From Vibrio rarus (GTDB taxonomy: Bacteria; Pseudomonadota; Gammaproteobacteria; Enterobacterales; Vibrionaceae): a stretch of DNA of 64,000 bases. Position 1 is the stretch's first letter, and every line of letters begins with the position of its first letter. The stretch covers positions 2,356,001-2,420,000 of the forward strand of contig NZ_AP024900.1 in NCBI RefSeq assembly GCF_024347075.1, given 5' to 3'. A program made the position numbers and the translations under genes. Below the pieces are notes generated by a model, which did not search any database, had not been told where the DNA came from, and saw only the letters and a program-made list of their open reading frames with translations. This document shows, one piece after another, positions 56,536 to 62,650 of the stretch.

Positions 56536-57027
56536 AACGAAAACCTACTTCTAATAAAACCCACAGACAAATGTCTCAGCAAACTTGATGCCATCTTCAA
56601 CCAGCAGTTCATCATAATAATAGTTCAGCTTATCTGACAGATCTTTTTAAAAGATAAGCCAATAATATAGTCAAGGAAGTTATCCTCTGACATGTTACTT
56701 CTTAACATATTGGGTATATTCCACAACTGTTTTCTTAATGCCTGTTGATGTTCGCGAACCATGCTGTACCGGTTGCCAGAATAGAAAAAGGCGAAGTAAC
56801 TACAGTCATACTTTGCAAAAAAGAAAAAGCTACTCACAGACTCAATCAGAATTAATGACCAAGCCTACTTTTGATGTAGATGTGCTATGGCAACAAATCA
56901 ACGTTAAAAACCTACTCATCTTAAAATCCTACGATGTAGAGAGTAGCTACCGTTGAGAAACAACATCATCCATTTTTATTTGCTTCTCAACTAACATCAA
57001 AATTATGGCACAAACCTGATTTTAGGC
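56536..57027. other. Gap holding the HsdM remnant
   Basis: Nearly 500 bases with no intact gene. The left part is the broken hsdM fragment. On the plus strand a 33-codon frame from ATG 56855 to 56956 (MTKPTFDVDVLWQQINVKNL...) exists but has no ribosome-binding site and no recognisable relation. Confidence 0.6.
56551..56762 (-). pseudogene. hsdM: Remnant of type I restriction methylase HsdM (N-terminus)
   Basis: On the minus strand, the frame from about 56762 reads REHQQALRKQLWNIPNMLR then SNMSEDNFLDYIIGLSF, the HsdM N-terminal helical domain. It then hits a stop, while the next frame continues DLSDKLNYYYDELLVEDG then IKFAETF until a TAG at 56551-56553. Adding one A to the A5 run at 56644-56648 would join the two frames. 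Even rejoined it would be only about 70 residues against roughly 500 or more for HsdM, and no methyltransferase motifs follow. So it is a frameshifted, truncated relic of a type I restriction-modification locus. Confidence 0.75.
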
Positions 57028-57780
57028 TCATTTATCACCATTTTTTAACAGTCCTTTTATCTCACTAATCTCACTTTTTAAAGATTTGATTTCGGCCATT
57101 AAATCATCATTATTATCACTAGCCATCTCATCAACAAAAATAGCATTAGCTAAAGATAAAGCAATAAATCCTCCGAGCACTAAAACCATTATGACAAACG
57201 CATTTACAGAGTAATATATATATGGTTGATTAAGCGCCTTTGCTGCCTCTGGAACTGCCCCCCAATTCTCGATGGTAAATATACCGAAAATAGTATTCAT
57301 TGATCGCAATGGATCTCCAAAATACTCAGGTATAATATTTGAAAACAGAGTAAACCCTAGCAATGAAAAAAATGTTAACTGTATACCTAATAAAATCAAT
57401 ACAGCTTTCGAGGCTTTTATACCACGAATAAGACCATTCACAATATGTTCTGTATTTGGCATTAATCTTATTATTTTTATAAGAGACACCATCCTAAATA
57501 TCCTAAGATACACTACACTTCCAAGTGATTCCGACGGGGAAAACAGAAAAGCCAAACTTATAATAACTATTAATAAATCAAATTTATTGCCTAATAAAGA
57601 TATGTATCCGCAAAAGGTATTCTCATTAATTTTAAAAATAACCTCAAAAACAAAATAGGTAATTACAAGCCAGTTTAAAGCATGTATTACAATAGAGTTA
57701 CTATAACTACTAATGAAAGCTAGAATTACAGATAAAACGATGACAATTGAATTGTATTTTGGTTTAGTAAAATATTTCAT
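57028..57780 (-). CDS. Voltage-gated-type ion channel protein (Ion_trans family)
   Basis: 250 residues with six predicted membrane segments. An S4-like helix at about 91-107 carries basic residues every third position (R93, R96, K102, R105). The pore loop reads GIFTIENWGAV; T169-x-E171-x-W173 matches the TxExW selectivity-filter pattern of bacterial sodium channels (TLESW). The cytoplasmic tail after residue 215 is a short coiled coil (LMAEIKSLKSEISEIKGLL), as in bacterial tetrameric channels. It lies 33 bases downstream of the HsdR_N-like gene on the same strand, so is probably cotranscribed. Ion selectivity is inferred only. It may be an ordinary channel or the membrane effector of a defence pair. 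Confidence 0.82.
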   Translation of the reverse strand: MKYFTKPKYNSIVIVLSVILAFISSYSNSIVIHALNWLVITYFVFEVIFKINENTFCGYISLLGNKFDLLIVIISLAFLFSPSESLGSVVYLRIFRMVSLIKIIRLMPNTEHIVNGLIRGIKASKAVLILLGIQLTFFSLLGFTLFSNIIPEYFGDPLRSMNTIFGIFTIENWGAVPEAAKALNQPYIYYSVNAFVIMVLVLGGFIALSLANAIFVDEMASDNNDDLMAEIKSLKSEISEIKGLLKNGDK

Positions 57781-57813
57781 ATTAAAAAAGGGAGGGGTTA
57801 CCTCCCTAACTCT

Positions 57814-58902
57814 TTACTCTTCATACTTAGATGCTTGTGCAAGCAACAGATCAGAAAGGTTATATATATCATCTAACGTTTCTATTGGATGACGAACTTC
57901 TTTTTTATCTTCACCTATAACACCAACATATTTTTGCTTGGAGTTAAAATGCAGTCTGCATAAAGGCTTACGATTATTATCATCAAGTAATATACCAAAA
58001 TAACTCTGAGTGTCTCTTGATGTTATACGAGAAACATCTAATTTCGCTCGAAGAATAGCCTTAACAATATTAAATCCGTCTATTTCTTCCTCAGTAGTTA
58101 CTACTTTTGATTTATTATTTTCTAATACTTCCTCTTTTATTTCAGCTTCTAATTCTGGTGGTTTTACATTAACTGAAACATCTTCATTACGACCAATCGC
58201 TGATTTTAATCTATCATTAATACTATCATTTAAAAATTGTTTTAATGCTTTAGATGTTATATCTAAAAACTGAGCTTTCACCTTTGCCGTTTGAACACCA
58301 TCATATACTTTTGAAGTGAAAAACTTAACAAAGTCTTCTTCTGGACTTTTAAATTGTTCTTGAAGTACTTTTTTAATTTGATTCAAATACTTTAACTCAC
58401 CAGCCGCATCTACAACAGAGTCAACGTCAAAAGATGATTTAGTTAGCTTCTTAACTTCTGGAACGATATGTTCATCAATCTCCGTCATATTAAGAGTCAA
58501 GAAAGGTTTATCATCCATCTTATTTGGAGCATCTAAATCTGTATAAAATTCGTATATTTCACCATTTGTCAGGATTGCAATTCGAGCATTAGTTACTGAA
58601 AAATATCGAAATAATTGACTTGCATGCTTGGTAGATAACTTTTCACCAAATTTTTTACATTCAATTAGTATTTGTACTTCTCCATCTTTAAGAAGTGCAT
58701 AATCTACCTTTTCACCCTTTTTAGTTCCTGTATCTGCATTAAACTCTGGAACAACTTCTGTTGGGTCAAAAACATCATAGCCAAGAACTGTATGTAAGAA
58801 AGGCATTATCAAAGCATTCTTTGTAGCCTCTTCTGTTTCTAATCTTGAACCAGTTTGTGCTATTTTTTTAGATAGTCCCTGTAAACGTTCAATAAAATCC
58901 AT
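57814..58902 (-). CDS. HsdR_N-like PD-(D/E)xK nuclease-fold protein
   Basis: 362 residues from ATG 58902, which has AAAGG 8 bases upstream (an in-frame upstream start adds 15 unlikely residues). The N-terminal 130 residues resemble the nuclease domain of type I restriction subunit R: ETEEATKNALIMPFLHTVLG, then KVDYALL (Asp 67) and ILIECKK (Glu 81, Lys 83), a PD-(D/E)xK core, followed by QLFRYFSVTNARIAILTNG. There is no helicase part. The middle is helical, and the C-terminal 100 residues (FNIVKAILRAKLDVSRITSRDTQSYFGILLDD) look like a separate small domain also found in restriction-like proteins. It precedes the ion channel gene. Activity and partner are unproven. Confidence 0.82.
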   Translation of the reverse strand: MDFIERLQGLSKKIAQTGSRLETEEATKNALIMPFLHTVLGYDVFDPTEVVPEFNADTGTKKGEKVDYALLKDGEVQILIECKKFGEKLSTKHASQLFRYFSVTNARIAILTNGEIYEFYTDLDAPNKMDDKPFLTLNMTEIDEHIVPEVKKLTKSSFDVDSVVDAAGELKYLNQIKKVLQEQFKSPEEDFVKFFTSKVYDGVQTAKVKAQFLDITSKALKQFLNDSINDRLKSAIGRNEDVSVNVKPPELEAEIKEEVLENNKSKVVTTEEEIDGFNIVKAILRAKLDVSRITSRDTQSYFGILLDDNNRKPLCRLHFNSKQKYVGVIGEDKKEVRHPIETLDDIYNLSDLLLAQASKYEE

Positions 58903-59530
58903 AGTATTACCTTTTAAATTTAGACAGCAATTAGCACATAATACCAAATGGATATTAATCGTCTAGGAACAGTTTGAAAATTTTATTAAATACATACTCT
59001 GTAGAAGTTACTGGCAGAACAACCACATTAGTACTTATAAGACGGTCACTATCTCACCCAACTTCTTTATGCAGTTATTATATTTTAAGATTCTTTAATC
59101 CAAGCTCACACGGCTCAAGCGCAAAGAGAAATATATCAGGCTGGAGTTTCGCACGAATCATCCCTAATTTCAGATAGAAGTCTTCTTTCCCTGCTCTGGA
59201 TTGCAAAAATAATGCATAAACACCAACATCACCAGAGGATAAATAAGCCAGTCTATTGCATGCCCTAAACGGCACTTCCCTCCCCCTAGTCCTTGACCTT
59301 GAACGCTTGTACAAACAGCAAGTTTCATACCTTTACGTTTCTCTATCAAACCATTTTGTACGGCATTTTAACGTTGAAATGGCATTGCTCACTCACAGAC
59401 TTTGTTGCAGGCTCTTTCATTAACATCGTAAAGAACTCCCTTAACAACAATAAGCTTGATTTTGTATGCTACAAATGTCATATAGATATCAAACACCATG
59501 TATTAAACGACACTTAACATAGAGTAATAA
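58903..59530. other. Large spacer upstream of the possible DUF6933 gene
   Basis: 628 bases without a convincing gene. A minus-strand frame at 59078-59314 (…SSGDVGVYALFLQSRAGKED…) has protein-like composition and may be a gene relic or dispersed repeat, but has no ribosome-binding site and a basic low-quality N-terminus. Nothing else is seen besides presumed promoters of the flanking genes. Confidence 0.55.
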
Positions 59531-60866: not shown

Positions 60867-61145
60867 AGAAAACAAACTCCATTTGCTCATATCAGATAGG
60901 TATCTTGCACAGTCACATATAAAACTTCAATCATATAAAGAGGCACGTATGATCTAATGCGATGAGGATCTTTCTTTTTACACAATTGATAGCAAACGTC
61001 GTAAACCTCTGCTCAGTCTAGGTAGTTAAAACACTTGATAACCGCGTTGAAATTTTTGACCATATCAGGGTAAACACGTCGAGATTCATGTTGCCGGAGA
61101 GCAGGAAGTGATTAAGGATGAACTTTTGCTTATGCCAGATACAAC

Positions 61146-61171
61146 AAAGCCCCGACATAAGTCGAGGCTTT
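61146..61171 (-). terminator. Hairpin downstream of the tRNA-Leu fragment
   Basis: AAAGCC and CGAC arms pair with GTCG and GGCTTT (one mismatch) around ATAA. It lies 12 bases beyond the tRNA CCA end in the tRNA's direction, where the terminator of the original tRNA-Leu gene would be expected. Confidence 0.55.
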
Positions 61172-61182
61172 ATCATTAAATA

Positions 61183-61235
61183 TGGTACCGGTGGGCGGAC
61201 TTGAACCGCCACGCCTTTCGGCAACGGATTTTGAA
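61183..61235 (-). other. Attachment-site remnant: 3' half of tRNA-Leu(CAA)
   Basis: Minus-strand sequence from the anticodon loop (TTCAAAATCCGT) through the long variable arm (TGCCGAAAGGCGT), the T arm (GGCGGTTCAAGTCCGCC) and the acceptor 3' strand to CCA (61185-61183). The 5' half of the tRNA is missing. A 3' half ending exactly at the anticodon loop beside a tyrosine integrase gene is the standard scar (attL or attR) of integration into a tRNA gene. The intact tRNA-Leu should lie at the other end of the island, beyond the window. Confidence 0.88.
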
Positions 61236-61294: not shown

Positions 61295-62650
61295 ATGAAA
61301 GAAACTATAAAAATGAGTGATGAATTAAAAAATTATATCAAACTTGCTCGAGGGCTTGCGATCTACAAACAAAAGCAAAGTAATAACTACTATATCTACA
61401 TCAGAGGTGAATACAAGAATCAAAAGATCGAGAAGCGGTTCAGCCTAAAAACAGACGACGTTAATGAGGCAAAGAAACAAGCATATGCTCATCAATTTAT
61501 GCTCGAAAAAAATATGGACGGAAGCATATTCTCCAACATAAAAAAGTCAAATTTATTAAGGATTTGCAACGATATACTAAAAAAGCTAGATAAGGAGACT
61601 AAAGAAAGTACTCAAAAAAACCCTCAGTCAAAGACACACGCTTCATGCATTCGAAACGATATTTTGCCAAAGTATGGGCAACTCTCGATCCATCAATTCA
61701 AAAGTAAGCAAATTAAAGAAATTTTAGGGTTGGCCACCAATCAAACTAAATACAATAATCTAGCAAAAATTATTAAAGATATTTTTGAACTCGCATACGA
61801 CGAGGAACTCATTAAGAAGTCTGATATCCCTGAAGTTAAGGCACCAAAAAAATTTAATGAGAGTGAATCTAGATCTCCTTTCTCTGATGACCACCTCAGA
61901 TTGATTCGATCTGGCTTCTCTAATTTTATCAATGCAAGTAACAGTCAGGTTACTAAAACAAATAGACAGCTTCTTGAGCTAGCATTCGATTTCCTGTTGG
62001 AAGTTGGTTGCCGACCAGGAGCTGAGATAGATAACCTTACTTATGGGTCTATTAGTAAAGTTATTAGCGAAGACGACATAATATATCGTCTGGAGTTTCC
62101 TCATACTAAGACCGATAACCACCGTAAGCCCCGTATGATACAGCTCTCAACAGAGGCTCTGAAGATAATAATCAGGGTGCATATGCTTTTTAATCCTGAC
62201 TTATACCCAAAGACAGAGTACTCTAAAGTAACCTGTCAAAGTCTGGATTTAAGTGTTAGTAAAAAAATGAGCTGGAGTGACTATGAAGATATTTTTTTTC
62301 AGCACTTACAAAATGATGCTTTTATTTTTCGTCGCCCAGAAAAAATAGAACTAAAACTTGACTGGAGTAAATTTTTTAAGCAGTACATGACAGTGTGTAA
62401 ATTAGATTACACACTATATTCATGTCGCCACTACTTCATCACAACACAATTACTCAATGCGACGAACCATATTGACCTTGCTAGTCACTGTGGGACATCA
62501 GTTCATATGATTGAGAAGTACTACTCTGATATCAAGCCTTACGAAGTTGGAAAGCGTGTCTTGGAAAACATGCCTAAACCCAAAATATACCTAACAAAAA
62601 TTCAGCATGGGAAAAAGCCAGAAACCATAGTCAGAACCCTTGATAAGTAA
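61295..62650 (+). CDS. int: Tyrosine recombinase / phage-type integrase
   Basis: 451 residues. An N-terminal SAM-like/arm-binding portion (about 1-180) precedes the catalytic domain with the Arg I box EVGCRPGAEIDNL, a Lys region PHTKTDNHRKPR, the box II sequence LYSCRHYFIT (a tyrosine replaces the usual first histidine, as in many integrases) and HCGTSVHMIEKYYS with the nucleophilic tyrosine. It starts 60 bases from the tRNA-Leu fragment and faces into the island. ATG 61295 has no strong Shine-Dalgarno sequence; an ATG at 61313 is an alternative. Confidence 0.92.
   Translation: MKETIKMSDELKNYIKLARGLAIYKQKQSNNYYIYIRGEYKNQKIEKRFSLKTDDVNEAKKQAYAHQFMLEKNMDGSIFSNIKKSNLLRICNDILKKLDKETKESTQKNPQSKTHASCIRNDILPKYGQLSIHQFKSKQIKEILGLATNQTKYNNLAKIIKDIFELAYDEELIKKSDIPEVKAPKKFNESESRSPFSDDHLRLIRSGFSNFINASNSQVTKTNRQLLELAFDFLLEVGCRPGAEIDNLTYGSISKVISEDDIIYRLEFPHTKTDNHRKPRMIQLSTEALKIIIRVHMLFNPDLYPKTEYSKVTCQSLDLSVSKKMSWSDYEDIFFQHLQNDAFIFRRPEKIELKLDWSKFFKQYMTVCKLDYTLYSCRHYFITTQLLNATNHIDLASHCGTSVHMIEKYYSDIKPYEVGKRVLENMPKPKIYLTKIQHGKKPETIVRTLDK

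Follow-up and report, generated by a model that had tools for sequence, protein, structure and literature searches.

The question raised by this locus is whether two adjacent genes of Vibrio rarus, one encoding a nuclease-like protein and the other a voltage-gated-type ion channel, work together, and if so, what they do. We analyzed a stretch of 64,000 nucleotides (contig NZ_AP024900.1, positions 2,356,001 to 2,420,000; hereafter the window) and compared both proteins with their relatives in bacterial genomes, plasmids and phage sequences. The first-pass annotation had described a 362-residue HsdR_N-like protein with residues D67, E81 and K83 and no helicase, followed after 33 bp by a six-helix channel with an S4-like helix and a TxExW filter, and our analysis confirmed this architecture, the channel being of the NavBac type and 250 residues long. 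The features discussed below are as follows.

57814..58902, minus strand: HsdR_N-type PD-(D/E)xK protein, 362 residues
57028..57780, minus strand: six-helix NavBac-type voltage-gated channel, 250 residues, filter TIENW
57784..57807, minus strand: terminator-like hairpin with T tract in the intergenic gap
58938..58965, minus strand: promoter-like site with an extended -10, upstream of the nuclease gene (consensus match only)
56637..56738, minus strand: relic of an HsdM N-terminus, 34 residues, downstream of the channel (HsdM_N, E = 0.0022)
61135..61235, no strand assigned: stretch with a partial tRNA-Leu gene (3' part), at which a neighboring integrative element has its left edge

The predicted nuclease consists of an N-terminal nuclease domain (approximately residues 1-140), a helical domain (147-236), a low-confidence stretch (239-265) and a C-terminal alpha/beta domain (271-361) with a middling structural likeness to the DNA-binding domain of T4 MotA and to YjbR. 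The putative active site residues D67, E81 and K83, whose conservation the first-pass annotation had made a test of its proposal, were invariant in all 46 aligned HsdR_N homologues. Judged by a full-length profile match (residues 1-361, E = 4.6e-129) together with the conserved D and ExK, the protein is a member of the phage-borne family PHROG 4225, annotated as 'endonuclease'. Foldseek gave no match below 0.001 in the PDB; in the viral set there was one match below that value (6.3e-11), to a phage protein whose name refers to the type I R-protein N-terminal domain. Neither protein of the pair matched any family in PADLOC-DB 2.0.0.

Pfam detected no helicase or translocase domain behind the nuclease domain, and the protein is therefore not a typical HsdR subunit. 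The HsdM relic at 56637-56738 nevertheless invites the idea that the protein serves a type I restriction system, as decoy or helper, and that this relic is what is left of the system's HsdM. The relic is a weak match, however, and HsdR_N homologues were found in varied contexts among the loci examined for the channel. Apart from the 34-residue relic, no intact hsdM or hsdS was present among the scanned neighbors. We give this explanation almost no credence.

The channel belongs to the Ion_trans family and shares with the bacterial sodium channels NaChBac and NavAb the S4 charge pattern and a TxExW-type filter; it differs from them in forming a separate clade, in a conserved DNN stretch after S6 (SLANAIFVDEMASDNN in the window protein) and in having adjoining partner genes. 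It might be a physiological Na+ or Ca2+ channel serving motility, pH or the osmotic response, with no relation to defense, since NavBac-type channels are common in Vibrio (matches in 35 of 196 genus-sample genomes at E of 0.001) and both fold and filter are of that type. A close relative (at least 39% identity), however, was present in only seven of the 196 genomes, one of them with a broken gene, whereas 23 of the other 28 genomes had channels that fell outside the clade in the tree (five were left out). Together with the link of this clade to candidate defense genes, described below, this makes a purely physiological role very improbable.

The separation is clear in a tree of 39 channel sequences, in which the window channel falls within a 12-member clade (support 100/100) and 27 ordinary channels lie outside, although some branches are long and the tree program warns that the placement of long rows is unsure. 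We conclude from this sequence grouping that the window channel does not belong to the ordinary Nav-like channels of Vibrio, which speaks against the possibility, raised in the first-pass annotation, of an independently distributed chromosomal gene of the genus. The clade comprises three channels with HsdR_N, which form a subclade (100/98), eight with M40B-like proteins and one with M09-like proteins. Two further channels (genomes G937 and G929) came to light only once the tree had been built and were assigned to the clade by the shared post-S6 stretch ending in DNN.

At E of 1e-20, channel matches were found in 8 of 394 order-sample genomes (four with ordinary-type channels) and in 7 of 227 family-sample genomes. 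A scan of approximately 85,000 species genomes yielded seven loci; it rests on two short patterns, and other relatives, found by genome searches, escaped it. The channel had no match in the phage collection, no confirmed match in IMG/VR and only distant matches (<28% identity) on plasmids, and we therefore no longer consider phages or plasmids of the searched collections to be carriers of the pair.

The HsdR_N-channel pair is present in three Vibrio species (the window genome, G127 and G125), with intergenic gaps of 33 (window), 34 and 36 bp. DNA similarity by blastn extends from 57041 to 58983 of the window in G127 and from 57047 to 58950 in G125, that is, over the two genes and a short upstream stretch, and ends at the edges of the pair in both cases. 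In G127, the pair lies between glmS and an intact tRNA-Leu; in the window the site is the same, with a tRNA-Leu remnant in place of the intact gene. In G125, the pair is inside contig C1, while glmS is on C46 and the RDD gene (the next after the tRNA) on C27, placing the pair at a different site. Both genes are under purifying selection in the comparison of the window with G127 (dN/dS of 0.074 for the channel and 0.068 for HsdR_N). The HsdR_N value between G127 and G125 was 0.051 (dS 1.76), and synonymous sites were saturated in the other comparisons involving G125.

The nuclease is far more widespread than the pair. HsdR_N matches occurred in 12 of 196 genus-sample genomes, nine of them with at least 73% identity along most of the length (including the window's own) and three weak or partial. 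The channel gene follows in three of the nine strong cases, namely the three paired genomes, and is absent in the other six. Matches were also found in 12 of 369 class-sample genomes (E of 1e-20; this includes the window and one weak partial match), in 18 phage records, in 50 plasmid records and in 26 IMG/VR loci, some of them near-identical. Counting loci besides the window (8 from Vibrio, 11 from the class sample and 26 viral, some short and some of the viral ones near-copies, with phage and plasmid records left out), a channel was present in 2 of 45 (G127 and G125) and absent in 43. HsdR_N relatives thus mostly stand alone, often in phage sequences. The prediction that the pairing would recur was borne out by two further Vibrio species, one with the pair at a different site, but the recurrence is limited to three Vibrio genomes. 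Because all three are Vibrio and their channels belong to one clade, a single joining event suffices. In the HsdR_N tree, the three paired sequences group with one unpaired viral copy, L096 (97/84); with this copy inside the paired group, HsdR_N and channel are not perfectly tied.

This distribution is the main support for the view that the two genes are independent. In this view the nuclease is a phage-type cargo endonuclease that needs no partner and ends at its own terminator, and a channel gene that landed behind it a single time has since been inherited with it, with a function of its own or none. The 43 channel-less loci and the abundance of HsdR_N in phage sequences fit this view, as does the hairpin with T tract between the genes, which has a similar counterpart at the end of the HsdR_N gene in the unpaired phage copy L096. 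As that copy has no channel, the hairpin probably belonged first to the nuclease gene. A promoter-like match inside the nuclease gene (58016-57989) points the same way and might serve the channel alone, although such matches are no commoner than chance. Against independence, both genes are intact, with dN/dS of approximately 0.07 between the window and G127, and the edges of the unit are kept at two different chromosomal sites. In addition, the channel ATG (57780) lies 3 nt past the T tract, too close for a promoter to fit between hairpin and start. We consider the independence of the two genes a serious possibility, though a doubtful one.

The junction is similar in all three paired genomes. 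Within the gap of 33-36 bp, 6-7 pairs form a stem that is accompanied by a T tract, and the ATG of the channel gene comes only a few bases later; by eye, no obvious ribosome-binding site precedes this ATG in the window, and no purine-rich one does in any of the three. The combination of a hairpin and the lack of an obvious ribosome site suggests, as a prediction from sequence, limited expression of the channel. Terminator-like sites in the scanned region were at chance level (1 found, 1.4 expected), so the case for the hairpin rests on its position and conservation. When four sequences were folded, two pairs had changes on both sides, in an alignment that was imperfect. In the promoter-like site ahead of the nuclease gene, the -10 sequence appeared by eye to be similar across the three paired genomes; promoter-like sites in the scanned region numbered 9, versus 14.6 in shuffles.

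A different line of evidence comes from the partners of the channel clade. Among the 13 intact clade members besides the window, two are directly behind HsdR_N. Seven others (in G126, G037, G039, Vibrio albus, G326, G542 and G937, the last a weak match with E of 1.7e-12) directly adjoin an M40B-like gene, with gaps of -1 to 78 bp. Two more (Parendozoicomonas haliclonae and Oceanospirillum beijerinckii) have an M40B gene within their gene cluster, at distances of 3.2 and 4.7 kb, so that 9 of the 13 have a protein resembling 'PDC-M40B' of PADLOC. One (Oceanospirillum sanctuarii) adjoins M09-like genes, and for the remaining one, G929, no such partner was found. Genome G140 was left out of this count; its clade channel gene is broken (L055 9986-10742), and the neighboring M40B-like gene is open over 585 residues. 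At locus L139 (7382-9016), a clade channel without M40B has a neighboring 255-residue protein that matches PHROG 1249 'acetyltransferase' (E = 6.2e-6).

PADLOC scans of six M40B-like proteins all gave matches to PDC-M40B (E of 1.2e-11 to 2.6e-74); those of G037 and G039 were assigned by 60% identity to one scanned protein, and that of G937 was outside the PADLOC scan. D206, H207, N238 and N247 are kept in the eight aligned M40B-like proteins, a D-H...N...N motif that we take to be of the HNH type by name, and by this motif alone the proteins appear to be HNH-like. Pfam gave no meaningful match, and a structure model was poor (pLDDT 55.6) and was not used. Several M40B-channel loci also hold a WYL regulator, a TerB-like protein (by profile), a coiled-coil membrane protein and a further coiled-coil protein (by eye). 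A recurrent cluster of a WYL regulator, a coiled-coil membrane protein, TerB-like, coiled-coil and PDC-M40B-like proteins and a NavBac channel was seen at L052 (10576-16767), L053, L054 and L083, and in part at L082, L045 and L047.

In our control, neither M40B nor HsdR_N was found within 1.5 kb of ordinary channels in 23 Vibrio loci or in 4 others. In the reverse direction, M40B-like proteins were present in 11 of 237 order-sample genomes, nine of which have no channel beside M40B; the other two are G326, with a clade channel, and G217, with an ordinary-type one. In the class sample, one of 369 genomes has M40B, and there the channel is absent. Taken together with the clade counts, this indicates that the channel is an optional component of M40B loci, whereas the clade usually has M40B as its partner. 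The NavBac-like channel of G217, 99 bp behind the M40B-like gene (L141 6569-9238), suggests that a channel was recruited a second time, independently. At L144-L148, M40B-like genes are adjoined by a gene of approximately 88-93 residues with a CxxCxxCC pattern and no channel; this gene is perhaps another exchangeable M40B partner. G077 has a channel-less HsdR_N gene and an M40B-like gene approximately 5 kb apart (L057 9806-10885 and 15682-17373). The window genome had no M40B match at E of 1e-10 and therefore does not qualify as PDC-M40. Some loci of that PADLOC candidate share with the window a clade channel and a nuclease-like gene, but they have more genes, and an HNH-like membrane protein takes the place of HsdR_N.

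The clade channels beside HsdR_N or M40B are thus one channel module with two unrelated nuclease-like partners. The expectation that the pairing lies near defense genes holds for the channel clade, whose members elsewhere are beside or clustered with PADLOC candidate-defense genes. The proposed defense island stands in part. The HsdM relic and type III restriction genes are nearby, but the island is only next door: the type III genes to the right are in an element of approximately 17 kb whose far end is an intact tRNA-Leu. Between them and the pair lie the tRNA-Leu remnant and, at 61295, an integrase-like gene (named by eye, with no significant Pfam match). The pair is therefore outside the integrative element, and we rejected this element as its carrier. 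In the element, an SNF2-like helicase gene comes after the type III restriction and methylase genes (L062 2-8908; G000:C1:2419001-2427907).

What the pair does can be proposed from this evidence. Our preferred reading, held tentatively and at somewhat less than an even chance, is a RexAB-like abortive-infection or anti-plasmid unit of two components, with the channel as membrane effector. The two genes would form one transcription unit. The HsdR_N-type protein would bind, and probably cut, incoming or replicating DNA, and the channel would let cations in and collapse the membrane potential, triggered by a signal from the nuclease protein or by depolarization at phage entry. The terminator-like hairpin and poor start would keep the channel scarce. 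The strongest argument for the RexAB-like reading is the change of partners, one channel clade having two unrelated nuclease-like neighbors; the strongest counter-argument is that HsdR_N is channel-less almost everywhere examined and that the three paired genomes need only one joining event.

The roles could also be reversed, with the nuclease as effector and the channel as sensor or regulator, for example if depolarization at phage entry released the nuclease. The invariant putative active site is compatible with such an arrangement, and the occurrence of the HsdR_N family without a channel elsewhere implies that the protein can act by itself. However, Pfam recognized no domain in the pair that would link channel state to the nuclease, and we think this arrangement improbable.

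RexAB is described as two adjacent genes, one for a DNA-binding protein that is presumed to be the sensor of infection and the other for a membrane protein presumed to act as an ion channel or pore, and for the RexAB-type system of P. putida membrane damage was seen without depolarization (PMC12894663). The Vibrio pair resembles lambda RexAB and RexAB-type systems, so described, in having adjacent genes for a DNA-binding-type and a membrane channel-type protein. No match named Rex was found for either protein in the Pfam, PADLOC and PHROGs tables. To our knowledge, RexA is not an HsdR_N nuclease, and RexB falls outside the NavBac family. The closest known systems also include Shedu SduA, type I HsdR nucleases and the orphan phage endonucleases of PHROG 4225. 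The window protein matches this last family over its full length; the other members are mostly channel-less, whereas here a channel follows. The first-pass annotation knew of no described system with this pairing, and we also found none that joins an HsdR_N-type nuclease and a NavBac-type channel in the titles and abstract starts searched, among the matches listed.

On sequence grounds, then, this small pair (approximately 1.9 kb) may be a kind of bacterial suicide defense. In a broader version, voltage-gated-type channels of this distinct clade would be an exchangeable immune effector working with unrelated nuclease-like sensors, mostly HNH-like and here HsdR_N, and the Vibrio channel would be silenced by the terminator until read-through, for example during phage infection; we regard this version as rather unlikely. 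What many bacterial voltage-gated channels do in nature is unsettled. If the clade is an immune effector, such channels would gain a testable role, and unrelated nuclease-like partners would have one effector in common.
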